DNA from: a virus
Length of the DNA stretch: 42,406 nucleotides
Virus record (IMG/VR): IMGVR_UViG_3300030329_001685
Coordinates: 1-42,406 of that record
Strand: one strand, 5' to 3'
Made by a program: the position numbers and the translations under genes. Below are positions 1 through 13,619 of the stretch, piece after piece (position 1 is the stretch's first letter; every line of letters starts with the position of its first letter). The notes under the pieces were generated by a model. That model saw only the letters and a list, made by a program, of their open reading frames with translations. It searched no databases and was not told the DNA's origin.

Positions 1-59
1 TTAGCGCCTGCGATGTTGTCTTCAATGCGAAGCAACTCTTCAGGCGATTTCGGGTCCAT
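1..59 (-). CDS. Duplicate 5' end of the helicase-loader gene (partial)
   Basis: The ATG at 59-57 and the following 19 codons are the same as the start of the DnaC-like loader at 41746-42366. The gene runs off the left edge of the window and continues at the right end once the repeat is collapsed. It overlaps the 3' end of the O-like replication gene (stop at 40) by 20 bases. The ribosome site GGAGGAG lies almost against the ATG, so the spacing is tighter than usual. Confidence 0.85.
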   Translation of the reverse strand, partial: MDPKSPEELLRIEDNIAGA

Positions 60-98
60 CTCCTCCGACTTCGGGGTAGTCCCCCCTTGATTCGCTGC
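1..98. repeat. Terminal direct repeat, left copy
   Basis: These 98 bases recur exactly at 42308-42405. The final base of the window (42406, a) differs from base 99 (t). The repeat lies inside the helicase-loader and replication-protein coding region rather than in an intergenic end. It is therefore better explained as the overlap of a circular or circularly permuted assembly than as a physical short terminal repeat, though the latter is not excluded. Confidence 0.95.
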
Positions 99-756
99 TC
101 TCTTGAGCAGACTTCCGCTTTCCTGCATTCTTACCTCCATTGGGCTCGAACAATCCTTGGTAGTTGTTTGCGACGCTGTTCTCCACCGCCGCCTTGAACC
201 GGTCCACCGGCATTCCCTCGACCTTCTTCAGGAAGGTGCGAGCGCCAACCTCTGAGTACCCTGAAGCGGGGAGCCCTTGTCTGTGCTTAACCCACAGAGC
301 AAGCGCCTCCTTCCGCACTGGGTCTTCAAGTAGGTGGGGAAATTCCTTCTTCGTCACCTCTACAAGGGTTCGCACCTTGCTAGGGACATTAGTAGGCTTA
401 GACACTTGGGCCTTCTGCCGGTGTCTCTTCTGTCTCGCAGCACCCTGCGCTCGCTTCTTAGCGGGCGAGCCGTTGTGCCGCTCAAAGTTAGGGAAGTGAA
501 TCCCGTCGTCGTCGAAGTATAGCCACCCATGCTTAGACATAGCCTCTGCGAAGCCTTTCACGCCGAGGTAACGGTCCACCCAAGAGGAGTTAACTCCCCT
601 TGCGCTGCCGTCATCGGTGTGTTGGTCGGCCCAACTCCACAGGGAGTGGAGCAGGCCGACCACTTCGTACTCGCTAAGGTCTAGGATGGAGGCGACTCCG
701 ATCACAGAGGGGTCACTCGTAAGGTTGACCCTCATCTTGATCCAGTCGCCAGCCAT
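40..756 (-). CDS. Phage O/DnaD-like replication initiation protein
   Basis: This 238-aa protein starts MAGDWIKMRVNLTSDPSVIG and contains LHSLWSWADQHTDDG and a GWLYFDDDGIHFPNFERHNG block near residues 75-95. That layout is typical of a phage replication-organiser family with an N-terminal winged helix. A Lys/Arg-rich linker near residues 98-120 leads to a second helical part around 120-205. By analogy with lambda O it would bind the phage origin and recruit the helicase loader. The next gene downstream on the circular map is a DnaC-like loader, overlapping by 20 bp, which supports the role. The family call is from pattern memory and the origin site was not identified. Confidence 0.75.
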   Translation of the reverse strand: MAGDWIKMRVNLTSDPSVIGVASILDLSEYEVVGLLHSLWSWADQHTDDGSARGVNSSWVDRYLGVKGFAEAMSKHGWLYFDDDGIHFPNFERHNGSPAKKRAQGAARQKRHRQKAQVSKPTNVPSKVRTLVEVTKKEFPHLLEDPVRKEALALWVKHRQGLPASGYSEVGARTFLKKVEGMPVDRFKAAVENSVANNYQGLFEPNGGKNAGKRKSAQESSESRGDYPEVGGDGPEIA

Positions 757-3167: not shown

Positions 3168-3240
3168 AAGTACCTCCATTCGAGATGGTAACGATTGCGG
3201 CGTGATTTTTATAGCCGCTAAATGTAGTGTGCTTGTCACG
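3168..3240. promoter_or_regulatory. Divergent control region between rusA and the recombination operon
   Basis: This 73-base gap separates the leftward gene starting at 3167 from rightward rusA starting at 3241. It contains the palindrome-like element gtaacgattgcggcgtgat at 3188-3206 and an AT-rich patch (tgatttttatag). A weak rightward promoter could be TTGCGG (3195-3200), 17 bases, CTAAAT (3218-3223), which would overlap the palindrome. The overlap fits an operator, but this is inference. Confidence 0.4.
3188..3206. repeat. 19-bp palindrome family, copy A
   Basis: gtaacgattgcggcgtgat fits RTMACG-N7-CGTKAY. It lies 21 bases upstream of the leftward start at 3167 and 35 bases upstream of rusA. 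Other family members are at 9158, 9408, 11539, 12548, 13171 and 13403. Confidence 0.55.
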
Positions 3241-3750
3241 ATGAAAGCACTACTGGATGTGTTTGTCGAAGGGCTACCCAAGGGGCAACCTCGACCGAGA
3301 GCCCGCCGCGCCGGGAAGCATATCGTGATGTATGATCCCGGCACGGCAGACGATTGGACCAGCGCTATAAGAGCTGCGATTACTGACGCCGTTGATCTCG
3401 AAGAGCGATGGTCTGTACCCATGCTCTTGCTCAAAGGCGCTAAACCTCCGCTGTCTGTCACCATGCACTTCGTCTTTCCGCGCCCTAAGTCGCACTTAGG
3501 TACAGGAAGGAACTCTGGCGTGGTGAAAGCCTCAGCGCCGGTCATACACACGGGCAAGCCTGACATAGACAATGCAGTCAAACTCGTGCTAGATGCATTG
3601 GGAACTCCTAAGAATCCCCTGCTATACGCGGACGATTCGTGCGTTGTAAGCATCGTGGCCTCCAAGCGTTGGGCTAAACAGGACGAGCCCTCGGGGCTGC
3701 ATCTCCTCATAACAGAGTCGGGGGATCAGGCCGTGGTGGAGACAACCTGA
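3241..3750 (+). CDS. rusA: RusA-family Holliday junction resolvase
   Basis: This 169-aa protein starts MKALLDVFVEGLPKGQPRPR, with the N-terminal strand and basic loop usual in RusA. The metal-binding signature is PDIDNAVKLVLDAL, with Asp108, Asp110 and Asp118, followed by the Asp131-Asp132 pair in LYADDS. RusA proteins are dimeric endonucleases that cut Holliday junctions and branched phage DNA before packaging. The ATG at 3241 gives the usual family length, but its ribosome site is poor. It is the only rightward gene within the leftward arm and so needs its own promoter in the gap upstream. Confidence 0.88.
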   Translation: MKALLDVFVEGLPKGQPRPRARRAGKHIVMYDPGTADDWTSAIRAAITDAVDLEERWSVPMLLLKGAKPPLSVTMHFVFPRPKSHLGTGRNSGVVKASAPVIHTGKPDIDNAVKLVLDALGTPKNPLLYADDSCVVSIVASKRWAKQDEPSGLHLLITESGDQAVVETT

Positions 3751-3824
3751 CCCCCCTAGGAGGTACAACACCGCGCCAAGGCGCAGACCCATAGCCTACA
3801 CGCTGCCGCTCTACAATCCTATCA

Positions 3825-4283
3825 TCATTCCTCTGACTCCCCGGTTCCTCCGCACTTCATGCAGGTAACGGGCAGTGGGTTCTCGGGCGTGTCTAGGTCG
3901 CTAGTCATCCCATGCCCCGAGCATTCTTCGCATGGGGGCACGCGCTTTGGCAGCACCCCATGATCTTCTAGCTCTTGCATGCGGCTGTTCATCCTAGAAG
4001 CCAGTTGGCTCAAGCGAATCATAAGCCAACTGCCCGAGGTTATCTCCGTGCCCTCGATCATGGCGTCAAGCGCAGCAAAGCCTCGATCCCTAAACTCCTC
4101 GTAGTCAGCGCGCATCGTCTTCAGGATGTGCTGGACTTCCTTCTGGTTTACTTGCAGGCGACTAGCGTTCGAGGCTATGAGCTTGATTGTTTGCTCTACA
4201 TTGTTGTACTCGCCTGTTCCCTTGCCGCTAAGGGGCATGCCTACTTCATCTAGGTAGTTGGGGTCGTTGCTGTTATCAACCAT
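3825..4283 (-). CDS. Hypothetical protein with C-terminal DnaJ-type zinc knuckles
   Basis: The 152-aa form starts at 4283, preceded by AAGGAGGACAAC, rather than further upstream. The middle (residues about 30-110) is helical and probably coiled coil. The C-terminus has CEECSGHGM and CMKCGGTGE, two CxxCxGxG-type units like those of the DnaJ zinc domain, which would bind one zinc ion. The start overlaps the end of the upstream gene by eight bases, showing translational coupling. I do not recognise the full-length family. A protein- or nucleic-acid-binding adaptor is plausible. Confidence 0.7.
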   Translation of the reverse strand: MVDNSNDPNYLDEVGMPLSGKGTGEYNNVEQTIKLIASNASRLQVNQKEVQHILKTMRADYEEFRDRGFAALDAMIEGTEITSGSWLMIRLSQLASRMNSRMQELEDHGVLPKRVPPCEECSGHGMTSDLDTPENPLPVTCMKCGGTGESEE

Positions 4284-4794
4284 TGTTGTCCTCCTTCCAC
4301 GCTTGGTTGGCCTGCCAGAAATCCCAGTACGGGTTAGGGAATGTGTCGGGCATGTCGTGAATGGGGTCATGGCCTTTCATCCCAAAGGGAATGATCTTAT
4401 ATGGCGACTCCTCAATCTCTTCCCAAGCATACGCCTTCACCCACGGCTGGTCGTCTAAATACGCGCTTAGGTCTTGGTAGTTGAGCCTTGCGGCGACCTC
4501 TTTGAGAGACAACTCAACCTCCTCCTTGCCTTCCCAGATTGCTGGGCTTTTGTCTGCTAAGAACTCGTGCCAAACCAAGGGGTCTGCGCATCTAATGTCG
4601 ATGCCAAGCGGGTGTAGTCCGAAGCCGACATACACCTTCTCGTGCGTATCTACATACATGCGTTGCTGGAAAATACTCCGTGGCATCGGGTGATCGGCAA
4701 GGACATCTCCACCGAAGTTTCTCCACCAAGCAAGCGCTTCCCACGCGGTTCCATCGCTGGGGTATTTAGGTCGTTCGGGTCTGTTTGTCTTCAC
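4276..4794 (-). CDS. Hypothetical protein, tryptophan- and proline-rich
   Basis: This 172-aa protein is soluble and acidic, with many aromatic residues (WEALAWWRNFGGD near 18-30; NPYWDFWQANQAWKEDNNG at the end). There is no signal peptide, membrane segment or recognisable catalytic motif. It is coupled to both neighbours: its start touches the stop of the upstream gene, and its last codons (KEDNNG) provide the ribosome site for the gene starting at 4283. It is likely an accessory early protein; the function is unknown. Confidence 0.65.
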   Translation of the reverse strand: MKTNRPERPKYPSDGTAWEALAWWRNFGGDVLADHPMPRSIFQQRMYVDTHEKVYVGFGLHPLGIDIRCADPLVWHEFLADKSPAIWEGKEEVELSLKEVAARLNYQDLSAYLDDQPWVKAYAWEEIEESPYKIIPFGMKGHDPIHDMPDTFPNPYWDFWQANQAWKEDNNG

Positions 4795-5348
4795 TACTCA
4801 TCCTCCGGGTTGCTGGTGTCCATTCCGTTAGCTTCGTTGTGTGCATCAACACCGAAGCCCATGCCGTGCATCATTGACTCACCATCGTCGTCGTCTTCGA
4901 TCTTCTCTTCAGGCATAAGCCAGACAGAGACATACATGTACCCATAGCTACCGTTAGGCGTAGCCACGAGGTACCACGGATACGACGGGTCGTACCCTAT
5001 TAGCTCATCTGCGCTGATCTCGATCTTGTCGTAGCTGTCGCCACTAGGTGCGCGCTCCTGTAGCTCCCTAGCTAGCGCAGGCAAGATCACCTCGTCGATG
5101 CAATCAGCGAACACCGTCGTCTGATCGTGCTCCTCTGTGTCGGGTAGCTCCTTGCCCTTCCAGTCAACGAATTGTTGGCGATCAGGTAGGAACTCAAGCG
5201 CCTCGCCATCCCCGAACTTAGCTTCGGGGTAGCACTTGCTTGGCATATAGATAGCCCTCGCACTCCATGCCATGCGCATACCTGCAGGGGCAGGGGTGCA
5301 AGACCAGTACAGGCGAATAGGCTGGGGGTTAGTGTGGCTAGTTGTCAT
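4794..5348 (-). CDS. Hypothetical acidic early protein
   Basis: The 184-aa form starts at the ATG ending at 5348, preceded by AAAGGAGAACAACG; an upstream in-frame ATG at 5408 would overlap the previous gene by 71 bases and lacks a site. The C-terminal third is very acidic (EEKIEDDDDGESMMHGMGFG). An internal block, YDPSYPWYLVATPNGSYGYM (about 128-147), looks like a beta-rich core. No known domain is recognised. It overlaps the 3' end of the upstream ribbon-helix-helix-like gene by 11 bases. Confidence 0.65.
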   Translation of the reverse strand: MTTSHTNPQPIRLYWSCTPAPAGMRMAWSARAIYMPSKCYPEAKFGDGEALEFLPDRQQFVDWKGKELPDTEEHDQTTVFADCIDEVILPALARELQERAPSGDSYDKIEISADELIGYDPSYPWYLVATPNGSYGYMYVSVWLMPEEKIEDDDDGESMMHGMGFGVDAHNEANGMDTSNPEDE

Positions 5349-5571
5349 CGTTGTTCTCCTTTGTGGTTGCGATGCGTACCTGTGTGTGTACCTCAAGCGT
5401 ACCCTCACGAATGATGTGCAAAGTACACAGCCTTGTGAGGTCAGCTATAGAAAGGCCAGCCGCCTTGGCTGCAGCCTTGATCTCGTTTCGCTCCTTGCGT
5501 GACACCCTGCATGCAGCGTGGTAGCTGCGAGGCTGGTAGTCATCCGTTGAAAGCACTGTTCTTCTGGGCAT
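5338..5571 (-). CDS. Small ribbon-helix-helix-like DNA-binding protein
   Basis: This 77-aa protein has YHAACRVSRKERNEIKAAAK followed by AAGLSIADLTRLCTLHIIRE. A strand, then a charged helix, then GLSIADLTR leading into a second helix, is the pattern of plasmid MobC and CopG-type ribbon-helix-helix proteins. Such proteins bind short inverted repeats as dimers and often repress their own operon. It lies directly downstream of ardC and is coupled to the next gene. It is a candidate reader of the 19-bp palindromes in this genome. This is inferred from motif shape only. Confidence 0.6.
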   Translation of the reverse strand: MPRRTVLSTDDYQPRSYHAACRVSRKERNEIKAAAKAAGLSIADLTRLCTLHIIREGTLEVHTQVRIATTKENNDDN

Positions 5572-5580
5572 CTGTACCTC

Positions 5581-6477
5581 CTAGTACTGGATGTTGAGGA
5601 TGTGATCGGCTGCCTTCTGTCCTGCTTGCGCAGCTTGGGCAACCAGCTTCTTGTCGTCCTTGAGACGCTTCAGCCAGTTACCGATGTAAGCGGCTGAGTT
5701 GTCTATGGTGTTGTGCTCGATGCCAGCATGGGCGCAGAGGAATGCAGCACCCATCTCGGCAATAAGCTCTTCCTTGCTGTACTGGTGTGAGCCGAAGGCA
5801 TCGAAGTCGGTGATGCCTTTCCTCTTCAGCCTCTTCTCATGGCCTGTCGAATGGACAAGCTCATGGAATAGCGTGGAGTAGAACTCCTCGCTCACATCGA
5901 AGGCGTCATGCTTCGGCACTTGGATGTGATCGTGCTGCGGTGAGTAGCACGCCCGGTCGCCTCCATCGCTACGCTTAGGAGGGTTGGGGTAGCCATCGAC
6001 AATAGCTTCCGCTGTCTCGATGGGGTCGTGTGCCTCAACCTCAGTCATGTCGGGCAGGGCAAACTCTTCCCCCTCTTGCGGGTCAGCTTGCTCACTGTTG
6101 AACACGGTGAAGTATCGAGCCAGCCAGATGGGGTCCACCTGCCCTGTCTTGGGGTTGGGCTTAGCATTCTTAGGCTCATGCTTACCCCAGTACACGATCT
6201 GCGTACCCTTCTCTCCCTTGCGTACTTGACCACCTCGCTCGGTGATCTGCTTGTATGTGCCCCACCAAGGGGACTCATACCCGTCGTGCTCCTCAGTGGG
6301 CCACGACTGGATAGCCAAGAGCATCTGGTTCATCCCTCTGTAGGGGCGACCAGTGCTCAGGCTCATGTGGAATCCTTCATCTGCCCACGGCTTGCGCCAC
6401 GGGACCACCCCCTCTTCGAGGGCAGTGATGATGCGATCAGTGATGTGCTGGTAGATGTCGAACTTGGGCTTTGCCAT
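5581..6477 (-). CDS. ardC: ArdC-like antirestriction protein with zincin domain
   Basis: This 298-aa protein starts MAKPKFDIYQHITDRIITAL and continues with VPWRKPW and GRPYRGMN, the N-terminal single-strand-binding domain of ArdC. The C-terminal metallopeptidase domain has HELVHSTGH at residues 205-213 (His205, Glu206, His209) and a later glutamate (Glu241 in KEELIAEMGAAFL) as probable third zinc ligand. ArdC proteins protect incoming plasmid or phage DNA from restriction. The length is about that of plasmid ArdC, so the gene appears intact. A strong GGAGGTACAACC site precedes the ATG. Its position early in the leftward arm fits expression soon after entry. Confidence 0.88.
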   Translation of the reverse strand: MAKPKFDIYQHITDRIITALEEGVVPWRKPWADEGFHMSLSTGRPYRGMNQMLLAIQSWPTEEHDGYESPWWGTYKQITERGGQVRKGEKGTQIVYWGKHEPKNAKPNPKTGQVDPIWLARYFTVFNSEQADPQEGEEFALPDMTEVEAHDPIETAEAIVDGYPNPPKRSDGGDRACYSPQHDHIQVPKHDAFDVSEEFYSTLFHELVHSTGHEKRLKRKGITDFDAFGSHQYSKEELIAEMGAAFLCAHAGIEHNTIDNSAAYIGNWLKRLKDDKKLVAQAAQAGQKAADHILNIQY

Positions 6478-6495
6478 AGGTTGTACCTCCGTTGG

Positions 6496-6828
6496 CTAAA
6501 GGGTGTCGTTGTCTTTGTGGTCTAGGTAGTTCTCCCGCTCAGCGATCTCCTCATCGGAGGGGAGTATGGATGCGATACGGTCGGGCGTCAGCTTCAGGTC
6601 ATAGTGACCGTCTTCAGCTACGATGTAGTGATTGCCTACTGGTACCGAGTGGTACTGTGAGGCAGTCACCTTGTAGAGCGAAAGCTGTGTCTCGCACAGA
6701 TCTTCCATCGCTCGCTGCGTAAAGCCGATCAACTCCTGCATGTTGCTGAAGTCGAGGATCAGTCTTACGCATCGGTCTTCTGTCTTGGGTAGGTGGGGAT
6801 ACACTGGCTTGTGGCTACCTGCTGTCAT
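6496..6828 (-). CDS. Hypothetical early protein
   Basis: This 110-aa soluble protein has a central mixed segment (CVRLILDFSNMQELIGFTQR, about 20-39) and a charged C-terminus (EEIAERENYLDHKDNDTL). No cysteine pairs, membrane segment or catalytic motif is seen. It is the gene immediately upstream of ardC on the same strand and may be co-expressed with it. Its ATG overlaps the stop of a 25-aa open frame. The function is unknown. Confidence 0.6.
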   Translation of the reverse strand: MTAGSHKPVYPHLPKTEDRCVRLILDFSNMQELIGFTQRAMEDLCETQLSLYKVTASQYHSVPVGNHYIVAEDGHYDLKLTPDRIASILPSDEEIAERENYLDHKDNDTL

Positions 6829-6902
6829 TTCTTATCCTTGGGCTTGGGCTTGGGGAAGGTCAGGTACTTCATGAAGTTCCAAGGGAGCGGCTTCTTGCTC
6901 AT
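6825..6902 (-). CDS. 25-aa coupled mini-protein, proline/lysine tail
   Basis: A short frame of 25 codons starts at the ATG ending at 6902 and stops at 6825. It is overlapped by ATGA at both ends: its start overlaps the stop of the upstream gene and its stop overlaps the ATG of the next. A ribosome site, GAGGAGC, lies in the end of the upstream gene. The product starts MSKKPLPWNFMKYL and ends in a repeated KPKPK tail. It fills the only gap in an otherwise continuous chain, which argues that it is translated. No function can be assigned. Confidence 0.55.
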   Translation of the reverse strand: MSKKPLPWNFMKYLTFPKPKPKDKK

Positions 6903-7090
6903 GCTTGCTCCTCATCTTCGTTCAGGGACTCATTGATCTGGCGAAGGCCCTTGGCGTAACCAAAGAGGCGCTCCCAATGCATCCTGTATGCGTCATTGCC
7001 GCTAGATTCCTGACCAAGCAGAGACACCGCTTGCATTAGCTCGATTAGCGCAGCGTCAAGATGCTTCTTAGCCTCATCAACCTTGCTCAT
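6899..7090 (-). CDS. Small helical hypothetical protein
   Basis: The 63-aa form starts at 7090 (MSKVDEAKKHLDAAL), with GGAGGCGTAGC upstream; a longer frame from 7174 would overlap the upstream gene extensively. The protein is almost entirely helical by composition and ends ESLNEDEEQA. Those last codons carry the ribosome site and ATGA overlap for the next mini-gene. It resembles the other small genes of this cluster in size and coupling. The family is not recognised. Confidence 0.6.
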   Translation of the reverse strand: MSKVDEAKKHLDAALIELMQAVSLLGQESSGNDAYRMHWERLFGYAKGLRQINESLNEDEEQA

Positions 7091-7091
7091 G

Positions 7092-8069
7092 CTACGCCTC
7101 CGGTGCGTCAGAGTTGAATGACTCAGTGCGATCTCGGTTGCATCGCTCAGCTTCATTTCGCCATGCCCGAGCAATGTTCAGGGCGTCCGCCCCGGAGTTG
7201 CCGTGGTACAGGCCAGACAACAGGCCCAGCAGGTCCGTTGCCGCCACGGCGACACGCCTAAGCGCTGACCTTTCGTCGGCTTCGGTCATCGGTGCGCCTG
7301 CGGCGGGTCGATTCCTGCGGACATCGAGCATCCACGCTTGCATTCTTTCGGCATCGTGGATCGGGGGAACAGTGGCCTCACCATTAGGAGCTAAGCCCAT
7401 CCATCCGGTCAGCGCAGAGTGCAACTCCTCGAAGTAGGCACGCCTGCGAGTGAGGATGGCTTGGATCTGACGCTCATCGCCAGTTGCCTTGACTGACATC
7501 GGCGTGCCGTCGTCAACGGTATGCCCATCCTTCAGGTTCATCGCTCGCACAATAGATTGCACTGCTTCCCTGAAATCGTTGCCGTCACTGCAATCTCCAC
7601 CCCGTGCCACCTGCTTCAGCATGTTGTTGGCCTCGCTAAGATCGAAGTCGCTGTCTGCGTTCTCGATCATCTGCTGAACCCTGTCTTCGCTCACGATGTC
7701 GTTCTGGTAGATGTAGTCGCTGATCTTGTCATCCCAGTCGATCTCGCCCACATAATCTGAGATCCTGTCGCTCAGGTTCAGGTGATCGTCGAGGTCTACT
7801 GAAGACAGGCAGTTGGTGAACCACTCGTCGAAGTTCCCCTCGACCGCCTGTATTACATCATCCATGCAGGGATGTGTGTCGCTGTCTTGCTCGCTTAGCG
7901 CCACGGCTACTGCTTCATGCAGCTTGTCCTTGTCGATGCCTTGGTGCTTCTCCACCTCCGCTTTGACGGCTGAGGTGAAGGCTTCCTTGATGGTGGTGAT
8001 GATGGTGTCCAGTTGCATGGTGTTGTCCTTGGTTTGGGTGTTGGTGTTGGCGTTGTTGGTGTCGTTCAT
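7092..8069 (-). CDS. Large acidic hypothetical early protein
   Basis: This 325-aa protein is the largest unknown of the leftward arm. The N-terminus is Asn/Thr-rich (MNDTNNANTNTQTKDNTMQL), followed by a helical segment (20-60). A strongly acidic region (about 70-160) is full of Asp, including FDEWFTNCLSSVDLDDHLNL and SDYVGEIDWDDKISDYIYQN. The C-terminal part is more basic (VRRNRPAAGAP) and helical. There is no transmembrane segment or catalytic signature. The acidic, Asp-rich middle could mimic nucleic acid, as some anti-defence proteins do, but that is speculation. It is coupled to the upstream gene by ATGA. Confidence 0.65.
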   Translation of the reverse strand: MNDTNNANTNTQTKDNTMQLDTIITTIKEAFTSAVKAEVEKHQGIDKDKLHEAVAVALSEQDSDTHPCMDDVIQAVEGNFDEWFTNCLSSVDLDDHLNLSDRISDYVGEIDWDDKISDYIYQNDIVSEDRVQQMIENADSDFDLSEANNMLKQVARGGDCSDGNDFREAVQSIVRAMNLKDGHTVDDGTPMSVKATGDERQIQAILTRRRAYFEELHSALTGWMGLAPNGEATVPPIHDAERMQAWMLDVRRNRPAAGAPMTEADERSALRRVAVAATDLLGLLSGLYHGNSGADALNIARAWRNEAERCNRDRTESFNSDAPEA

Positions 8070-8317
8070 TCTGATCTCCAGTTGTCTGCGTCCCGGATAG
8101 CCCCTTCGGGGTCAGCCTGATACGCAGCGTTCTCGTTGAGCCAGTCGATCTCATGCTCACGCTCTTCATCTAGCACCTCCTTGATCTCGTCAAGCAGGTA
8201 CAGCCTGTTGGCAGTCAGGCCGCCGAAGTCTGCGAGGTCTTTCTTCAGGCGCTCGACTAGATCGTTGATGCTTTCACGCACCGCTTCCGTCAGGATCCGT
8301 TGTTTGTCTTCGCTCAT
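8066..8317 (-). CDS. Small charged helical hypothetical protein
   Basis: This 83-aa protein is highly charged and probably all helical (ESINDLVERLKKDLADFGG; YLLDEIKEVLDEEREHEIDW). The start is fixed by the 17-bp junction cassette with GGAGG, and the stop overlaps the next ATG by four bases. No known family is recognised. Confidence 0.6.
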   Translation of the reverse strand: MSEDKQRILTEAVRESINDLVERLKKDLADFGGLTANRLYLLDEIKEVLDEEREHEIDWLNENAAYQADPEGAIRDADNWRSE

Positions 8318-8607
8318 GCTTGCACCTCCTTGGGGGTGAATCCCCCGTCAATCTCCATCCAGCGAACCGCAGCCTTGAGAAAATCCAGGGCTCGCCGCTC
8401 ACCACACTTTGAATCTGTGGCAACAACCTTGTGGCCAACACACCATTTTCCCAGCCGCTTGCACTCGTCGCTAACGGGGTCATCGTCCGTCACGGGTCTG
8501 TCCGTCTTGGTGATGCCGTCGAAGTACCAACCCTCATCCCATCCGAGGCTCTCGGCTAGGTAAAGCGTGTCCTCTTCGCCCCAAACGCCATTCACTAGCT
8601 GCGTCAT
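8314..8607 (-). CDS. Hypothetical small early protein
   Basis: This 97-aa protein is rich in Trp, Asp and Glu, with VWGEEDTLYLAESLGWDEGW at residues 8-27 and three cysteines (DECKRLGKWCVGHK and SKCGERRA, about 48-70). The C-terminus, FTPKEVQA, is generated by the embedded ribosome site of the downstream gene. Both ends are coupled by ATGA. The function is unknown. Confidence 0.6.
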   Translation of the reverse strand: MTQLVNGVWGEEDTLYLAESLGWDEGWYFDGITKTDRPVTDDDPVSDECKRLGKWCVGHKVVATDSKCGERRALDFLKAAVRWMEIDGGFTPKEVQA

Positions 8608-8798
8608 GCTTGCACCTTCTCTAAGGTCACATCGTCCTCTAGCCCATCTATCGACTCGACGGGGTGAGGGCCGTCCACAAGGGAATCCGAGAGCCCCTCA
8701 CTTAGTTTCTCAAGGGCAGCCGCCTCGTCCTTGGCCTCGACCTCATAGGTGTAGGCCACCCATTCGGCCACAATGTGTGTGATCTTGTACTTGCTCAT
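8604..8798 (-). CDS. Small hypothetical protein, beta-then-helix
   Basis: The 64-aa form starts at 8798 (MSKYKITHIVAEWVAYTYEV), directly behind the GGAGGTGCAAGC cassette; an upstream in-frame ATG at 8831 lacks a site. Two short strands are followed by a charged helix (EAKDEAAALEKLSEGL) and an acidic tail. The pattern resembles the many small alpha/beta early phage proteins of unknown role. Both ends are coupled by ATGA overlaps. Confidence 0.6.
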   Translation of the reverse strand: MSKYKITHIVAEWVAYTYEVEAKDEAAALEKLSEGLSDSLVDGPHPVESIDGLEDDVTLEKVQA

Positions 8799-9103
8799 GC
8801 TTGCACCTCCTTGATGCTCTTGGGTTGCCATGCGATGTCTCGCTCGATGCCCAGCCCCCAGCCCACATCGACAGACTCAAGCTCACGCAGGGTGAAGTAC
8901 CCCCACTCACGCTCAAGCAGATCGACTAGGCCAAAGAACAGCCAGTCACCGTCGTCTTGCTGCTCGCCTTCAGCCACATACCAAGTACCTTGGCCCATAG
9001 GGTTGAAGAACTTGCAGACGACCTCCTTCTCGAAGAGGTCCACCCCTTCGGTAGCGCCTAGCTTGGGTAGCTTGCGCTCGATTTCTTTCGTGAGTAGCTT
9101 CAT
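8795..9103 (-). CDS. DUF2958-family protein
   Basis: This 102-aa protein starts MKLLTKEIERKLPKLGATEG. It contains KFFNPMGQGTWYVAEGE and DWLFFGLVDLLEREWGYFTL, then ESVDVGWGLGIERDI. This order is the hallmark of the DUF2958 family found on plasmids and phages, often near ArdC-like proteins. The length is about that of the family, so it looks intact. The biochemical role is not established. The presence of ardC in the same arm makes an anti-defence or DNA-entry role worth considering. The start and stop both sit in junction cassettes. Confidence 0.8.
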   Translation of the reverse strand: MKLLTKEIERKLPKLGATEGVDLFEKEVVCKFFNPMGQGTWYVAEGEQQDDGDWLFFGLVDLLEREWGYFTLRELESVDVGWGLGIERDIAWQPKSIKEVQA

Positions 9104-9327
9104 GCTTGCACCTCCTGCTTGCGAAGCAGGTGCCCCACCTCTTCCTTGCGGTGAGCCGTAACGATGGCACCGTTACTCGATGCCTCGCCCATCCACATAA
9201 AGCCACCGCGTCGGCTCAATGTGCGCCACACCTTGCCGATCTCACGAGTGGCATAGATGCAGAGTTGGTGATTGCGTCCGGCAGCACTGATGTCCTGCCA
9301 TACATAAGAAGATCTGTTGCGTTGCAT
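9100..9327 (-). CDS. Small basic hypothetical protein, first gene after a regulated leader
   Basis: This 75-aa protein is basic with a Gly/Trp-rich centre (RRGGFMWMGEASSNGAIVTA, about 39-58). It ends LLRKQEVQA, the cassette-encoded tail. It is the first gene after the 81-base purine-rich leader at 9328-9408 and has AGGAGGGACAAC before its ATG. A perfect GTAACG-N7-CGTTAC palindrome lies within its coding sequence (9158-9176), about 55 bases upstream of the DUF2958 start. The function is unknown. Confidence 0.6.
   Translation of the reverse strand: MQRNRSSYVWQDISAAGRNHQLCIYATREIGKVWRTLSRRGGFMWMGEASSNGAIVTAHRKEEVGHLLRKQEVQA
9158..9176. repeat. 19-bp palindrome family, copy B (intragenic)
   Basis: gtaacgatggcaccgttac is a perfect 6-bp inverted repeat with a 7-base spacer. 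It lies inside a small gene and 55 bases upstream of the DUF2958 start, where it could act as a secondary operator. Confidence 0.5.
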
Positions 9328-9426
9328 AGTGTTGTCCCTCCTAAAGGACAGGTAGGTAAGTAGGTATCTTCTCTTCTCTCTCTCTTCTCTTCTCTGGTAA
9401 CGGATGAGTCACGCTGATTGCGTCAT
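9328..9426 (-). promoter_or_regulatory. Leader with purine tract and palindrome copy C
   Basis: Read on the minus strand, this region contains the element at 9408-9426 (plus strand gtcacgctgattgcgtcat), then CCGTTACC, then a run of about 30 purines built from AGAGA/GAAGA units (9366-9395), then the ribosome site AGGAGGG. The same CCGTTACC plus AGAGAAGAGAAGAG arrangement occurs on the plus strand at 13414-13452. It is probably a transcription start region or 5' leader for the genes from 9327 leftward. Confidence 0.5.
9408..9426. repeat. 19-bp palindrome family, copy C
   Basis: gtcacgctgattgcgtcat fits the family with one deviation (CGTCAT). It overlaps the 3' end of the gene that stops at 9409 and lies 81 bases upstream of the start at 9327. 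Confidence 0.45.
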
Positions 9427-9654
9427 CCACCATCGCACCCATTCATTGTCGGCGTCTAATTCGCCGTCGTCGCAGCAGAGGCAGGCGTCATGCTCCCGCT
9501 CCCACACCTCGTCAAGGTGCAGGTCTCTGCGCCTCATCCACTCGTACACTTGCGCTGCAATGGGCACGAGGTAGAGGACTTCGGCTGCCCTCTGTCTGCG
9601 CTTCTTGTTGGCCTCCCGCTTGTTGCGGTGCCTGTGGATGCGTCGTCTACTCAT
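9409..9654 (-). CDS. Small arginine-rich hypothetical protein
   Basis: This 81-aa protein has a very basic N-terminus (MSRRRIHRHRNKREANKKRR), likely to bind nucleic acid. An amphipathic helix follows, then CLCC near residue 58 and an acidic, Trp-rich end. The CLCC pair plus upstream histidines might hold a metal. The stop codon lies inside palindrome copy C. The start overlaps the end of the upstream gene. The family is not recognised. Confidence 0.6.
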   Translation of the reverse strand: MSRRRIHRHRNKREANKKRRQRAAEVLYLVPIAAQVYEWMRRRDLHLDEVWEREHDACLCCDDGELDADNEWVRWWMTQSA

Positions 9655-9982
9655 AGCGAGGCCGCTCCTTCGGCCAAGGTTCAGCGGGGTGTGACTCGAT
9701 GCTTACACGGTATTCACCCACCCCATTGGTGTTCGTGTAGTGAGGGTTCGCATCGTTCTTGGCGTTACACCATGCGTTCCATCTAGCGCGCACGGTGTCT
9801 AGGTCCTCGGGTCCGCTCTCGTGCGTGTAGACCCCTTCATCGTGGTCACGCGCATCGCCAAACTTCTCCTCCCAACGCACAGGGATTGAGGCATGGGGTA
9901 CACCGTAGTCGTACCACCAGCCCCCCTCCTCGGCTCCGCCGTAGCCCTGATCCACCTTGTACACATTGAGGTACTTGCTCAT
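9647..9982 (-). CDS. Conserved-looking hypothetical phage protein
   Basis: This 111-aa protein starts MSKYLNVYKVDQGYGGAEEG and continues with GWWYDYGVP. It is rich in Tyr, Trp and Gly in the first third and ends with a beta-like GEYRVSIESHPAEPWP segment. I recall similar small proteins with a YGGxEEGGWWYD signature in other phages but know no assigned function. Its start lies in a junction cassette. Confidence 0.65.
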   Translation of the reverse strand: MSKYLNVYKVDQGYGGAEEGGWWYDYGVPHASIPVRWEEKFGDARDHDEGVYTHESGPEDLDTVRARWNAWCNAKNDANPHYTNTNGVGEYRVSIESHPAEPWPKERPRYE

Positions 9983-10236
9983 GCGCTCACCTCCTCGTCG
10001 GGGTGCATTGGCAGGGATGCCGTCGCGTGAATCTGCTTGTTGAGGTAGTCATCAGCCGCCGTTGTGTGCTTGAAGTCTACTGCGAGTTTGTAGCAGTCGT
10101 ACCCAAGGCGAGCGAACTGTGCATAAGACATCCAGCCCTGCTTCAGAGGCAGTTGCACGCAGATCTCCTGCGTCTCTTCGTCGTACCAGAAGGCGAGAAA
10201 CGCCGCGTTCTCAGGGAGAAGTTTCTCGCCACTCAT
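9979..10236 (-). CDS. Small hypothetical early protein
   Basis: This 85-aa soluble protein has LLPENAAFLAFWYDEETQEI (6-25), suggesting strand-turn-strand, then a helical segment (SYAQFARLGYDCYKLAVDF). It ends HPDEEVSA, the tail encoded by the junction cassette of the following gene. It is coupled by ATGA at both ends. No family is recognised. Confidence 0.6.
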   Translation of the reverse strand: MSGEKLLPENAAFLAFWYDEETQEICVQLPLKQGWMSYAQFARLGYDCYKLAVDFKHTTAADDYLNKQIHATASLPMHPDEEVSA

Positions 10237-10502
10237 GCGCTCACCTCCTCGCAGACAGCTACGCTCTTGAGGTCAGTCACAGGCACACGCTCAACATCAC
10301 CACGCACAGGGACATCCTCCGCAGGCATATCGGTATCGTGCCAGACCTCCGTGATGATGCCGACCAGCGTGGGCGTGGGCTCCTCAGCCTCCCAGTCGTC
10401 CGGCGTGCTAGTCACACGCATACGCACAGGGAAGGGGCTGGACCAGCGCCAGACATCGACGATCTCGTTCACGGTCAGGTCATAGGGGGTAAAGGTACTC
10501 AT
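10233..10502 (-). CDS. Small beta-rich hypothetical protein
   Basis: This 89-aa protein starts MSTFTPYDLTVNEIVDVWRW. It is mainly beta by composition (FPVRMRVTSTPDDW; LVGIITEVWHDTDMP) and acidic. It ends AVCEEVSA through the downstream junction cassette. There is no membrane segment. A strong site precedes the ATG (GAGGGCAACTAGAT). The function is unknown. Confidence 0.6.
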   Translation of the reverse strand: MSTFTPYDLTVNEIVDVWRWSSPFPVRMRVTSTPDDWEAEEPTPTLVGIITEVWHDTDMPAEDVPVRGDVERVPVTDLKSVAVCEEVSA

Positions 10503-10504
10503 AT

Positions 10505-10735
10505 CTAGTTGCCCTCCTTGGGCGGGGTCAGGTTGGGGTTGGTGTAGCCATGAAGAATCCCCATGGCTTGGCTAATGAGGTGCAGGGCGTACTCATCATT
10601 CTTGGTGATTGCGTCATCGAGAAGGCGCTCACGGGCCTCATTCAGCTTCTCGTACACGCGGGAGTTCTCGTCGTGCATCTCTTCGATGCGTGCTTGCAGG
10701 GTCTGAACCTTGCGGTAGTGCTCGCGGTAGTCCAT
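10505..10735 (-). CDS. Small coiled-coil protein
   Basis: This 76-aa protein consists largely of one coiled coil (residues about 1-45, VQTLQARIEEMHDENSRVYE) followed by a second helix (EYALHLISQAMGIL) and a short Pro-rich tail. Its ATG overlaps the stop of the 34-aa membrane protein upstream (TGATG). It might pair with that membrane protein, but this is inference from position. Confidence 0.6.
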   Translation of the reverse strand: MDYREHYRKVQTLQARIEEMHDENSRVYEKLNEARERLLDDAITKNDEYALHLISQAMGILHGYTNPNLTPPKEGN

Positions 10736-10839
10736 CAGTCATCCTCCCCGAAGATCTTGCACAGGATGTCACCCGCAAGGATGAGCCCCGTGAACACAGC
10801 GAGGATGAGCAGGAAGCCGCCGATGATGTGGGCAATCAC
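10735..10839 (-). CDS. 34-aa single-span membrane protein (GTG start)
   Basis: This short frame uses GTG at 10839-10837, overlapping the upstream stop as GTGA, with AAGGAGG five bases before it. The product has one hydrophobic segment (IIGGFLLILAVFTGLILAGD) followed by a short charged tail (CKIFGEDD), the shape of a small inner-membrane phage protein. The stop overlaps the next ATG as TGATG. Coupling at both ends and the strong site support its being real. Confidence 0.65.
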   Translation of the reverse strand: MIAHIIGGFLLILAVFTGLILAGDILCKIFGEDD

Positions 10840-11084
10840 ACGGTCCTCCTTGCGATCATGCGCAGCCTCTCGACTGCACGGGGTTCCCATCCAGCGACCA
10901 CGCCACGGTCCTCGGGCAACAACTCTCGCCTAGTCAGGCGATGGATGTCCCGAAGCGCAGCTTGGTACGCACGGATGGTGGGTTTCCAATGGGCGTAGTA
11001 GCAGTACAACAGCCCAGCACTCAGGCCAAGGCCCAGAGCAGCGAGGCAGGAGACTACGAACAGCGTGTGGTGTAGGTCGCTCAT
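10836..11084 (-). CDS. Small membrane-anchored hypothetical protein
   Basis: This 82-aa protein has an N-terminal membrane segment (LFVVSCLAALGLGLSAGLLY, about 8-27). A basic cytoplasmic tail of about 50 residues follows (RRELLPEDRG; RAVERLRMIARRTV). It is coupled to the genes on either side by overlaps of four and three bases. With the 34-aa membrane protein downstream it forms a small membrane pair early in the leftward arm. Early expression argues against a lysis role; superinfection exclusion is a possibility only. Confidence 0.6.
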   Translation of the reverse strand: MSDLHHTLFVVSCLAALGLGLSAGLLYCYYAHWKPTIRAYQAALRDIHRLTRRELLPEDRGVVAGWEPRAVERLRMIARRTV

Positions 11085-11488
11085 CGGGCCACCGCCTGCA
11101 CATCGAAGAGGTTGCCCTTCGGGAAGGTGCGCTTGAACGCATCAAGGATGCGACCCTTCAGCGAGCGCACGGGATACACCTTCGCGCCAGTCTCAAGCTC
11201 CTCCACCTCACGGGCGATGAAGTCCAGCGAGTCGGCGTGTGCCAGCCTGAAGGCGGACATCACGGTTCGGGCTGCGTCCCCACACAGGAACGCATCGCCG
11301 CTCTTCTCGGCATCCACAAGCGCTCTCACGAGACGCCTGTGCTTCTCACCCCCACGAGGGGCGTACTCACCGAAGGCACAGGCGAGGACGCCGCCAATAT
11401 CTCGGGCGTCATCCCTCGACAGGGTGCCCTGCCATCCATCGGGTCCGTAGGTGTGGTCTGAACGGTTCAACAGTTTGCTAGCACGCAT
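11081..11488 (-). CDS. Hypothetical protein, first gene after palindrome copy D
   Basis: This 135-aa soluble, slightly basic protein has an N-terminal part with YGPDGWQGTLSRDDARDIGG and a central helical part (HRRLVRALVDAEKSGDAFLC). It ends KGNLFDVQAVAR. The ribosome site TAGGAGGTATACCA precedes the ATG at 11488. It follows a 91-base control region, so it probably begins a transcription unit that continues through the small-gene cluster. The family is not recognised. Confidence 0.65.
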   Translation of the reverse strand: MRASKLLNRSDHTYGPDGWQGTLSRDDARDIGGVLACAFGEYAPRGGEKHRRLVRALVDAEKSGDAFLCGDAARTVMSAFRLAHADSLDFIAREVEELETGAKVYPVRSLKGRILDAFKRTFPKGNLFDVQAVAR

Positions 11489-11579
11489 TGGTATACCTCC
11501 TAGGTATGGGTTTGGCGTGACTCATGGGTAACTCAGCCATCACGCAGGGAGCGTGACGGTTTCAACTCAGGGGCGTGGG
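11489..11579 (-). promoter_or_regulatory. Intergenic control region with palindrome copy D
   Basis: This 91-base gap lies between leftward genes. It holds atcacgcagggagcgtgac at 11539-11557 (51 bases before the start at 11488) and additional half-sites (gcgtgac at 11515-11521). The inverted repeat could be an operator or an RNA hairpin. No clear promoter boxes were seen. Confidence 0.45.
11539..11557. repeat. 19-bp palindrome family, copy D
   Basis: atcacgcagggagcgtgac has TCACGC and GCGTGA arms. It is closely similar to copies E (12548) and F (13171). Confidence 0.6.
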
Positions 11580-11771
11580 CTAGGCCCTCGCCTGCGGGTA
11601 GCGCCAGATGATCCTGTCGGCAGGGAAGCTGAACGCGTAGTCGTCCCACTCATCTTGTAGCGCGTCAGAGGGCTGGCCTACCATCGTGAACACGGGAGTC
11701 CCGTCCTCGAAGTGCAGCGTGATCTTGCACTCGGGCGAGTCGTGGTACACCCATCCATTCAGGCGGTTCAC
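11580..11771 (-). CDS. Small hypothetical protein (GTG start)
   Basis: This 63-aa protein starts at GTG (11771-11769), with GGAGG six bases upstream and a GTGA overlap with the previous stop. The sequence is beta-rich (GWVYHDSPECKITLHFEDGT; GTPVFTMVGQ) and then acidic, ending RIIWRYPQARA. There are no membrane or metal motifs. It follows two Cys-rich mini-proteins in the same chain. Confidence 0.6.
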   Translation of the reverse strand: MNRLNGWVYHDSPECKITLHFEDGTPVFTMVGQPSDALQDEWDDYAFSFPADRIIWRYPQARA

Positions 11772-11890
11772 GCGTCACCTCCTTCGGCCTTCTGGAAGCA
11801 CGCAAGGCAGTTGCCGTCACCGTGGGCGTGCTCCTCCTCCGTTAGCTGGGCGTTACAGGTGTAGCAGGATGCTTCTGCGTATGTAGTCAT
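11768..11890 (-). CDS. 40-aa zinc-ribbon-like mini-protein
   Basis: This frame starts at the ATG ending at 11890, with GGAGGCTAG eight bases upstream, and stops at 11768. It contains CYTC and CLAC (residues 9-12 and 28-31), separated by a Glu/His-rich loop (LTEEEHAHGDGN). The two CxxC pairs could form one zinc ribbon. Its stop overlaps the next GTG start, so it belongs to the same translational chain. The role is unknown. Confidence 0.6.
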   Translation of the reverse strand: MTTYAEASCYTCNAQLTEEEHAHGDGNCLACFQKAEGGDA

Positions 11891-11894
11891 GGGT

Positions 11895-11978
11895 CTAGCC
11901 TCCTATGGGCAGGTAGCACTCGGGGCAGTCGATGGCGTGTGAGTCGTGCTCACAGTCGCAGGTGCAGGTCTCAGGCAT
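11895..11978 (-). CDS. 27-aa cysteine-rich mini-protein
   Basis: This very short frame starts at the ATG ending at 11978, with GGAGGCGC ten bases upstream. The start of the product, METCTCDCEHDSH in form with Pro at position 2, carries three cysteines, and CPEC follows near residue 18. Five cysteines and two histidines in 27 residues are enough for a metal site. The last codons (GGA GGC TAG) supply the ribosome site for the 40-aa gene downstream. It is probably expressed; the function is unknown. Confidence 0.5.
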   Translation of the reverse strand: MPETCTCDCEHDSHAIDCPECYLPIGG

Positions 11979-12022
11979 GGTTGATGCGCCTCCTAGCGCA
12001 TGGGGGTTGCTCCACTCCGCAT

Positions 12023-12145
12023 TTACACGGGCTTGTGACCGTCTGTACACGCGTACAGGCTGCGTTCGAGCCACGAGACAGGCACGGGCCTGCCTCGCAG
12101 GAAAGACTTGCTACGGGCGCGCAGAGGGCTCATGATGCACACCAT
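12023..12145 (-). CDS. Possible 40-aa basic mini-protein
   Basis: This open frame has GAGGTG a few bases before its ATG. It encodes an Arg-rich peptide (SPLRARSKSFLRGRPVPVSW). The codon pattern is not distinctive and the frame overlaps no other gene. A 6-bp inverted repeat (ctcatg/catgag, 12129-12148) covers its start. It may simply be an intergenic leader, so the call is tentative. Confidence 0.3.
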   Translation of the reverse strand: MVCIMSPLRARSKSFLRGRPVPVSWLERSLYACTDGHKPV

Positions 12146-12169
12146 GAGACACCTCTACGCGCGCGGGGC

Positions 12170-12523
12170 CTACTTGGACGCCTTGGCGGCGTCACGCAGC
12201 TTGCGAAGGCGAGTCACGAGCGCGGCGAGCGGCTTGCCCACGGGCACATCAAGCTCCCGGCGCTGGCACTCCTCGACCGCGCGAACCCACATGTTCGCGT
12301 TGGCGACGGTCACGGGCTTGCGCTTGCCGTCGTCGTCCACGATCTTGCCTGCGTGGCGGTCCAGCAGGCGCTTAGAGCCCCCGTTGTTGTGGATCCTGTC
12401 CCCCAGGCCTGTGCGGGAACCGTTCCGCTTGACGCACAGAGGCGCGAGGGTGTCGATGGCGTGGGCAAGCTCCTTGATGGCGGGCTTGGACGCCTTGGTG
12501 ATGTCGTAGCTGATGGTTTTCAT
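12170..12523 (-). CDS. Basic hypothetical protein, first gene of the leftward arm
   Basis: The 117-aa form starts at 12523 (MKTISYDITKASKPAIKELA), with GGAG seven bases upstream; a longer frame extends into the control region. The protein is basic, with a conserved-looking KRNGSRTGLGDRIHNNGGSK block (about 33-52) and a C-terminal helical part (AALVTRLRKLRDAAKASK). It is the first leftward gene after the divergent control region and so is probably an immediate-early DNA- or RNA-binding protein. No family is recognised. Confidence 0.6.
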   Translation of the reverse strand: MKTISYDITKASKPAIKELAHAIDTLAPLCVKRNGSRTGLGDRIHNNGGSKRLLDRHAGKIVDDDGKRKPVTVANANMWVRAVEECQRRELDVPVGKPLAALVTRLRKLRDAAKASK

Positions 12524-12706
12524 GTGTAACTCCTGTACACGCAATGGGTCACGCACGGGGCGTGACGGGAACGAGCAGCGCCACACGACGCCGCTTCATC
12601 CCAACCAACGCGCGGCGGCGCGCAGCACGCGCACCCCGAGCGCGCGCGCATACCCCCATAGTGTCCAACATTCACCCGAGAGAACTCTACATATAAGCAA
12701 CTTCCT
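12524..12706. promoter_or_regulatory. Divergent control region between the two arms
   Basis: This 183-base gap separates the leftward start at 12523 from the rightward terS start at 12707. It contains palindrome copy E, a GC-rich run of CpG and GCGCGC steps (about 12609-12650), and an AT-rich end. A rightward promoter candidate is TTCACC (12671-12676), 15 bases, TATAAG (12692-12697). That would put the start of transcription nearly at the terS ATG. It is the only place where the arms diverge, so both sets of promoters are expected here. Confidence 0.5.
12548..12566. repeat. 19-bp palindrome family, copy E (perfect)
   Basis: gtcacgcacggggcgtgac is a perfect 7-bp inverted repeat (GTCACGC/GCGTGAC) with a 5-base centre. 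It lies 25 bases upstream of the first leftward gene. Confidence 0.65.
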
Positions 12707-13174
12707 ATGACTAAGCAATATAACACCCTAGACCGCAGACTTCCCGACGATCTGATCGAGCGTGACTGGCCCGAGACGCTGACACCGTTACAGGTGCAGT
12801 TCTTAAATGCGTTTGCCGTGGGGGGCTCAGTGGCCCGTGCCTGCCGATATGTGGGTATGGCCCGTGCTAACCCCTACCGATGGCTTGAGAGCAGCGAGGT
12901 CTTCGCGGAGCAGTTCGCTGTGGCGAAGGAGTACGGCGTACAGCGGCTTGAAGACTGGGCCTTGAGTCGGGCTATGGACGCGGATAACCCCTCTGACAGG
13001 CTGACTGAGTTCCTCCTGAAGGCTGCTAGACCCGAGGTGTATAGAGATCGGGTGGATCACCACCTACATGGGAAGGTTGAGCACCGGAAACGGGTGATTC
13101 TGGAGGGTCTTGAGGAGGCTGAGGTGGTTGAGCCCCTGATGCTGGAGTCCCCTAAACCGGAGGAAGAAGAGTAA
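12707..13174 (+). CDS. terS: Terminase small subunit (probable)
   Basis: This 155-aa protein has a helix-turn-helix-like N-terminal part (LTPLQVQFLNAFAVGGSVAR, then ACRYVGMARANPYRWLESS, about 25-63). A helical middle ends FLLKAARPEVYRDR, a segment common in small terminase proteins of the HTH-oligomer type. The C-terminus is acidic (PKPEEEE). It would recognise the packaging site and regulate the large terminase encoded at 14831. It opens the rightward arm. There is no ribosome site before the ATG, and a TATAAG box lies ten bases upstream, so the mRNA may be nearly leaderless. Confidence 0.75.
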   Translation: MTKQYNTLDRRLPDDLIERDWPETLTPLQVQFLNAFAVGGSVARACRYVGMARANPYRWLESSEVFAEQFAVAKEYGVQRLEDWALSRAMDADNPSDRLTEFLLKAARPEVYRDRVDHHLHGKVEHRKRVILEGLEEAEVVEPLMLESPKPEEEE

Positions 13175-13189
13175 CGCAGTGAGCGTGAC
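13171..13189. repeat. 19-bp palindrome family, copy F
   Basis: gtaacgcagtgagcgtgac overlaps the terS stop codon and the GTG start of the next gene. It differs from copy D at three positions. Confidence 0.5.
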
Positions 13190-13406
13190 ACCTAGTGGAG
13201 AGTTTGGGTACTGGATTAACTACTACCCGATGCCGGACGGGGTTCAGTTGGCTCATTTCATCCCGTATGACGAGTGGCACCCTGTAGAGCCGGGGCTGTG
13301 CGAGTGTGGATGTGAGATCAAAAAGTGCGATGGCGGCTTCTATATGCTGCATAAGAGGGACATTCGGTACCTGCAGGTGCCTGACTACCTACCAGAAGAA
13401 GTGTAA
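13179..13406 (+). CDS. Small hypothetical protein with cysteine cluster (GTG start)
   Basis: This 75-aa protein starts at GTG, four bases after the terS stop. It has an aromatic N-terminal half (GEFGYWINYYPMPDG) and LCECGCEIKKC at about residues 40-50, a compact four-cysteine cluster that may bind zinc. No ribosome site is obvious, so it may depend on re-initiation after terS. Its stop lies inside palindrome copy G. The function is unknown. Confidence 0.6.
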   Translation: MSVTPSGEFGYWINYYPMPDGVQLAHFIPYDEWHPVEPGLCECGCEIKKCDGGFYMLHKRDIRYLQVPDYLPEEV

Positions 13407-13421
13407 CGCTGTTGCCGTTAC
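13403..13421. repeat. 19-bp palindrome family, copy G
   Basis: gtaacgctgttgccgttac is a perfect GTAACG/CGTTAC inverted repeat with a 7-base spacer. It overlaps a stop codon (13404-13406) and precedes the purine-rich leader. Confidence 0.6.
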
Positions 13422-13619
13422 CGGAGAGTGACCAGAGAAGAGAAGAGAAGAGTAGTAGTTTTAGGGGGCTTGGGTCGGTAGCCTTGGGCCAGACGCACTG
13501 ATGTGTGAGAAGAAGCCTCCGGGAGGCAAGTCGTGCGTCGAGGGTGTGGATCCAGACTTGCCTCCCACTTTTAGGTGACGGTATTGTCGTGACGGGCCGA
13601 TTGTGTTATCAAGCAAGCG
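13407..13619 (+). promoter_or_regulatory. Leader of the virion gene block
   Basis: This 213-base gap starts with CCGTTACC (part of copy G), then a purine tract of AGAGA/GAAGA units (13433-13452), then ttttaggggg. It ends with a stable 11-bp inverted repeat, gggaggcaagt (13521-13531) with acttgcctccc (13556-13566), followed by acttttagg. The first part mirrors the leader at 9328-9426. The inverted repeat may be an attenuator or a structured 5' RNA. Confidence 0.5.
13501..13578 (+). CDS. Possible 25-aa leader peptide
   Basis: An ATG at 13501 opens a 25-codon frame (starting MCEKKPPGGKSC) that spans both arms of the inverted repeat at 13521-13566. There is no convincing ribosome site. If translated, a ribosome on it would disrupt the hairpin, as in attenuation, but the evidence is weak. 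Confidence 0.2.
   Translation: MCEKKPPGGKSCVEGVDPDLPPTFR

Follow-up and report, generated by a model that had tools for sequence, protein, structure and literature searches.

The stretch of DNA analyzed here (the window) is a single IMG/VR virus record of 42,406 bp. It carries genes for a replication initiator and a DnaC-like helicase loader, which share a strand but are located at the two extremes of the record and would be neighbors only if these ends join, as we infer they do. In addition, it contains a family of 19-bp palindromes, two of which belong to larger composite elements (Table 1). An earlier note had listed seven such sites of the form RTMACG-N7-CGTKAY, and all seven were recovered at their positions: six match the pattern exactly (3188, 9158, 11539, 12548, 13171, and 13403), and the one at 9408 deviates by a single mismatch (CGTCAT).

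Table 1. Palindromic sites, composite modules, and replication genes of the window
Feature	Position	Strand	Remarks
Replication initiator gene (238 aa), proposed reader	40..756	-	phrog_2509 (E 3e-49), phrog_9474
Palindrome GTAACGATTGCGGCGTGAT	3188..3206	.	Between divergent genes 2793-3167 (-) and 3241-3750 (+, RusA-like)
Palindrome GTAACGATGGCACCGTTAC	9158..9176	.	Within ORF 9100-9327 (-); ~190 bp beyond module 2 tract
Origin-like module 2, complete	9426..9367	-	Palindrome 9426-9408 (one mismatch), 5-bp spacer
Module 2, third half-site CGTTAC	9402-9397	-	Followed by C
Module 2, purine tract	9395-9367	-	
Palindrome ATCACGCAGGGAGCGTGAC	11539..11557	-	~50 bp before gene 11081-11488 (-); conserved in L005
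Palindrome GTCACGCACGGGGCGTGAC	12548..12566	.	Divergent gap before terS; ~25 bp before gene 12170-12523 (-); conserved in L005
Decayed site, 2 mismatches	12773..12791	.	Within terS
Palindrome GTAACGCAGTGAGCGTGAC	13171..13189	.	Over terS stop codon and start of ORF 13179-13406
Origin-like module 1, complete	13403..13452	+	Palindrome 13403-13421, 5-bp spacer, AGTGAC 13427-13432, C, tract
Module 1, purine tract AGAGAAGAGAAGAGAAGAG	13434-13452	+	
One-mismatch site GTGACGGTATTGTCGTGAC	13575..13593	.	27 bp before gene 13620-14222
DnaC-like helicase loader	41746..42366	-	phrog_50 (E 2e-25)

A motif scan of the whole window placed all exact sites below 13.5 kb, in keeping with their claimed restriction to the early and divergent region. 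Two further sites with one mismatch are present at 2183 and 13575, and from 13.6 kb to the end of the window the scan returned just five two-mismatch sites, so that the proposed scarcity in the virion genes held as well. While 300 dinucleotide shuffles of the window, the kind of comparison that had been proposed, produced 0.02 exact sites on average and never more than 1, the actual sequence contains six. The reversed pattern yielded no site in the window, nor did identical arms separated by 0 to 6 or 8 to 20 bp, i.e., only the 7-bp spacer occurs. The sites are spread over 10 kb without clustering. Their placement in control gaps was correct for 3188, 11539, and 12548, whereas the site at 9158 lies in an ORF and those at 13171 and 13403 each extend over the stop codon of an ORF upstream, which makes them gene-edge rather than promoter-gap sites. 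The arms are of exactly two types, CGTGAC and CGTTAC. Since some arms are fully complementary, e.g., GTCACGC/GCGTGAC at 12548, the elements might be read as RNA hairpins (terminators or leaders) with a purine-rich leader. However, an A-type arm faces a C-type arm in two of the six window sites and in 4 of 14 sites of relatives, and such pairing breaks the stem; moreover, the two composite modules described below lie on opposite strands, and the element occurs in any codon phase within initiator genes. We therefore regard hairpins as the least probable of the explanations considered.

Five relatives of the window phage (L005 to L009) were found via TerL, with 73 to 88% identity; their contigs are fragments without the initiator gene. 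The conservation that the earlier note had asked for was present: these contigs carry 14 exact sites (5, 4, 1, 2, and 2 in L005 to L009, respectively) against shuffle means of ≤0.02, located around terS and the next small ORF. Specifically, at four orthologous sites of the window and L005, the arms are identical at 48 of 48 positions, the spacers at 21 of 28, and neighboring noncoding DNA at 252 of 343, an excess of arm identity that was significant in comparison with both the spacers (Fisher p 0.0005) and the neighboring DNA (2e-6). Judged from these sequences, the palindromes are a real family of DNA sites of the protein-binding type, and the conservation of arms combined with spacer drift is the pattern of a dyad-binding protein. 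The less regular sites have counterparts, too: the decayed site at 12773, whose left arm has been lost from the window, is intact in L005 (position 1860), the site at 13171 is conserved in L005 and has one mismatch in L008, and the site at 13575 corresponds to a one-mismatch site in L005 (position 2671). The sites at 12548, 12773, 13171, and 13403 adjoin or overlap terS, and L005, L006, L008, and L009 also have sites in this area, as might be expected if they marked a packaging start or were recognized by terminase. Against this speak the remaining window sites, which lie 1 to 9 kb from terS, and the occurrence of the composite within initiator genes of other phages; a role in packaging is accordingly very improbable.

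The earlier note had correctly recognized the sites but overlooked the decisive feature, a purine tract beside those at 13403 and 9408. In both modules a third half-site follows the palindrome at a constant distance of 5 bp and precedes CAGAGAAGAGAAGAG, with C and AGAGAAGAGAAGAG after the half-site in each case. The purine tract, 19 to 29 nt long across the two modules, adjoins the third half-site in both, with a GC content of 0.43 to 0.49 versus about 0.57 in the surroundings. The modules lie on opposite strands, facing outwards from each other, and the cumulative GC skew has its minimum at about 10 kb, between them; as gene direction changes close by, this minimum is weak evidence for an origin. 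The tract is absent at five sites (3188, 9158, 11539, 12548, and 13171), of which the one at 11539 has AGTTAC as its third half-site at the canonical distance of 5 bp; its L005 counterpart likewise has a third half-site at 5 bp. Paired C-runs after the tract were considered as an additional constant part and rejected, as they occurred in only 12 of 77 cases, versus none in the control stretch.

Module 1 is present in L005 to L009, where the tract separates the small ORF downstream of terS from the gene that follows; the stretch 13433-13452 is identical to L005 at all 20 positions. Twenty-six columns, including CxAGAGAAGAGAAGAG, are invariant among these five relatives and both window copies, and in L006 to L008 the position of the third half-site is occupied by the right arm of the palindrome itself. 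The stretch matching module 2 falls outside the relatives' contigs, and this module is known from the window alone. In four more distant TerL relatives with an initiator homologue the tract is present with other half-sites; in L271 and L272 a tract is present close to the end of the contig, and no initiator was seen. Neither exact sites nor the tract were detected in the TerL relatives L010 to L013, which are uninformative on the pairing of element and initiator because no initiator was seen in them either. When the early and virion regions were compared with named phages by BLAST, no match was obtained. With TerS as bait one locus was obtained and with RecT two, whereas an ArdC-like gene returned 65 loci, which contained a single stray exact site.

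Viral contigs were then scanned for CGTKAC-N0-3-AGAGAAGAGAAGAG and for GCGSACCAGAGAAGAGAAGAG, with GCGSAC replacing CGTKAC, and 160 loci among the matches listed from both scans were read. In 155 of these 160, palindrome and tract lie within an ORF homologous to the window initiator, which makes the original proposal of what is mainly a transcription regulon probably wrong. The five exceptions comprise two loci cut by the contig end (L295 and L334), one in which the initiator frame stops just before the element (L107), and two with no recognized initiator (L089 and L135). The tract starts in all three codon phases (45/25/5 in the 75 loci tested among the matches listed), encoding peptides such as TREEKRREE, PEKRREE, or QRREEK; it is therefore the DNA that is conserved, not the peptide. 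Among the matches listed, a 19-bp site with up to two mismatches precedes the third half-site by 5 bp in 49 of 80 loci and by 6 bp in 6 of 80. For the first 80 element loci among those matches, 125 of 127 exact sites lie no more than 280 bp from the tract; elsewhere, two were found in 720 kb, compared with three for a control pattern, i.e., the chance level.

These loci also bear on the possibility that the sites form a regulon read by another phage protein, either a ribbon-helix-helix (RHH)-like one or an unseen repressor, and unrelated to replication. Dyad sites in control gaps would suit such a regulon, and one of the two RHH-like proteins put forward as readers (5338-5571) indeed matches a NikA-like RHH model. 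However, no homologue of this protein or of the second candidate (759-1013) was found in the element-bearing loci searched, and site plus tract occur in the initiator genes of very different phages, rendering this explanation improbable.

As a guard against circularity, a second sample of 80 loci was picked by the initiator alone, 78 of which were long enough for analysis. The purine tract was found in the expected stretch in 70 of the 78 genes, 66 of these 70 having an N7 inverted repeat with at most one arm mismatch. In a further 6 of 78 the tract lies further downstream in the same gene, after an HNH-like insertion, and L474 has a variant tract, AGAGAAAGAGAAAGAG; the tract or its variant is thus present in 77 of 78 genes, with L451 as the sole one lacking both. 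Homologues of the initiator were identified in Rac (ydaU), epsilon15, SPN1S, TL-2011b, CP2, and phiPSA1, whose initiator genes contain the element as such or in a related form, the element itself being located in the initiator gene in Rac ydaU, CP2, SPN1S, epsilon15, and CBW1004C-Prop1. The genes of epsilon15 and SPN1S show the same geometry with other arms (GTCCGC-N7-GCGGAC, AAAAA, GCGGACCAGAGAAGAG), and those of Rac and TL-2011b combine GTAACG arms with CAGAGGAAGAGGAAG. A search of the open-access literature gave no match for the tract or its peptide, and none joining DnaT, iteron, and DnaC-like; an earlier description elsewhere is possible, e.g., in Weigel and Seitz 2006.

The window is an exception to this arrangement. 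The linker DNA of its own initiator gene contains neither a palindrome nor a tract, and two complete copies of the element are located elsewhere. Its initiator matches the O-like phrog_678 weakly. In the structural model the N-terminal domain is confident (pLDDT block means of >90 for residues 11 to 90), and its best, weak fold matches are winged-helix entries, including the initiator 4pt7 and DnaD N-terminal domains. With Z values of about 4 to 5, these matches are under the level that shows kinship and too weak for a family name; a Foldseek search with the model gave no match at E 0.001, and a sequence search of solved structures with the initiator profile gave nothing significant. Mapping of the half-site class (CGTTAC, CGTGAC, or GCGGAC) on the N-terminal domain tree required 11 changes, against a shuffled mean of 54.6, and none of 200 shuffles was as low. 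Likewise, nearest-neighbor initiators among the matches listed agree in half-site class in 122 of 131 cases, with 38% expected. This agreement is partly joint inheritance, because element and domain share one gene. The window provides a cleaner case of pairing, since its sites stand far from the initiator gene: among the matches listed, its 15 nearest initiators all have CGTGAC or CGTTAC, the two arm types of the window, whereas GCGGAC occurs in 58 of the 131.

Taken together, the sites and the composite element, its nearly constant location within homologous initiator genes, its occurrence in three reading frames, and the conservation in relatives suggest that the palindromes are iterons of the phage's initiator and that the modules represent one or two relocated origins outside the initiator gene; we assign this reading a probability of roughly 0.8. 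Each 19-bp site would be bound by a dimer of the initiator, and a complete origin module would consist of a palindrome, a third half-site at a distance of 5 bp, and a 19- to 29-nt tract. By analogy with ori-lambda, the initiator assembled on its sites would melt the adjoining tract, and the DnaC-like loader and then the replicative helicase would be brought in. The activity of the modules as origins, and the firing of both, are likewise predicted. On this account, the module resides in the initiator gene in nearly all relatives of the initiator, and the window lineage would carry it in one or two different locations and have additional initiator sites at the edges of genes.

Origin function alone leaves the five tract-less sites unexplained; they may serve as additional iterons, as operators, or for titration. 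The scattering is peculiar to the window lineage and calls for an explanation, given that in phages with embedded origins the off-origin exact sites are at chance level. The reading of the palindromes as iterons could be extended to a dual use, in which the initiator binds all sites and those at gene edges act as operators or titrate the initiator and limit firing; in the operator form, the initiator level would also switch early and late transcription. Three sites, 3188, 11539, and 12548, lie about 20 to 50 bp before gene starts, and at 11539, 12548, and 13171 the arms are kept in L005 while the spacers drift. On the other hand, the sites at 9158 and 13171 are located within or at the ends of coding sequence, and plain iterons require no gene start nearby. 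We consider dual use a tentative proposal, somewhat more likely to be wrong than right. A bolder scenario, which we put forward as speculation and think rather unlikely, is that an origin normally embedded in the initiator gene was separated from it in this lineage and copied to give two modules facing outwards, with extra initiator sites scattered over gene edges, such that one protein times replication and the switch from early to late transcription.

The signature of inverted repeat, 5 bp, half-site, and CAGAGAAGAGAAGAG marks a probable origin in very many phages and prophages and pairs each probable origin with its initiator. In most of these phages, the DNA signal is confounded with the coding of a peptide linker. 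The group of the window phage offers a natural control indicating that the DNA matters, as here the element is conserved even though it lies past the end of an ORF. The window phage may also serve as a test case for how gene-embedded origins move and multiply.

Among known systems, ori-lambda provides the closest parallel, comprising an array of 19-bp inverted repeats for O and an easily melted A+T-rich tract, with the origin in the middle of the initiator gene (PMC5043065, PMC7466680). The usual form of the initiator family described here shares the array of 19-bp inverted repeats, the adjacent tract, and the mid-gene location of the putative origin, and a helicase loader gene lies beside the initiator gene (in the window only if the record ends join). 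In contrast to lambda, this family has another half-site and a purine GA-repeat tract that is not A+T-rich; the window initiator resembles the O-like profile weakly, and in the window the module is found outside the initiator gene, twice. While an origin of the lambda type embedded in an initiator gene is known, what appears new from the sequence are origin-like modules outside that gene and in two copies. The Rac prophage of E. coli, which has an active origin, oriJ (PMC3945230), encodes a homologue of the window initiator in ydaU (ydaU-ydaV), which holds GTAACGCTGCCAGCGTTAC and CGTTACCAGAGGAAGAGGAAG; here, unlike in the window, the module lies within ydaU, and oriJ might correspond to it. 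The usual embedded layout further resembles, by description, that of a Bartonella run-off-replication phage, in which palindromes in an O-like gene preceding a helicase gene were read as a lambda-like origin (PMC3610622). Finally, G38P of SPP1 has one origin in its own gene and also binds a second one (PMC5499656), a precedent by layout for one initiator with two origins. The window has two modules that are complete by sequence and may act in this way, with the difference that neither copy lies within the initiator gene.

An additional exact palindrome is found 253 to 279 bp before the purine tract in ten of the embedded-origin loci, i.e., viral contigs carrying the element within a gene homologous to the window initiator (L090, L092, L094 to L096, L101, L119, L142, L144, and L161). 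The DNA under this extra palindrome appears to code for the N-terminal domain of the initiator (DGNAxxVT), and the window initiator protein has DGSARGVN at the corresponding place. In 12 of 77 loci (L094, L099, L121, L123, and others), the approximately 90 bp that follow the tract hold paired C runs, each of at least four C; a control stretch has none.

In six initiator homologues (L408, L418 to L420, L422, and L431), an apparent HNH-like insertion separates the N-terminal domain from the purine tract, which is located 672 to 704 bp into the gene. Among the 78 initiator genes, only that of L451 is devoid of the purine tract, its linker DNA featuring CCGAACCGATC-type repeats instead. The table includes two further contigs in which the element apparently does not lie within an intact initiator reading frame.

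Positions of the features described in the window and in the collected loci
Feature	Record	Position	Strand
Initiator gene	window	40-756	-
DnaC-like loader gene	window	41746-42366	-
ArdC-like anti-restriction protein (ArdcN and MPTase-PolyVal domains)	window	5581-6477	
3285-aa protein, LPD38 polyvalent-protein domain close to the C terminus	window	29553-39410	
Element outside intact initiator frame (apparent)	L107	~1751	
Element outside intact initiator frame (apparent)	L135	~3308	
Initiator gene with repeats in place of tract	L451	8261	

The genes for the initiator and the DnaC-like loader are located on the same strand at opposite ends of the window record, an arrangement that would fit a complete, circularly permuted genome opened at a point between these two genes. 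The genome contigs that carry TerL relatives (L281 to L286; 41 to 47%) belong mostly to Planctomycetota, which hints at this phylum as the host group of the window phage.
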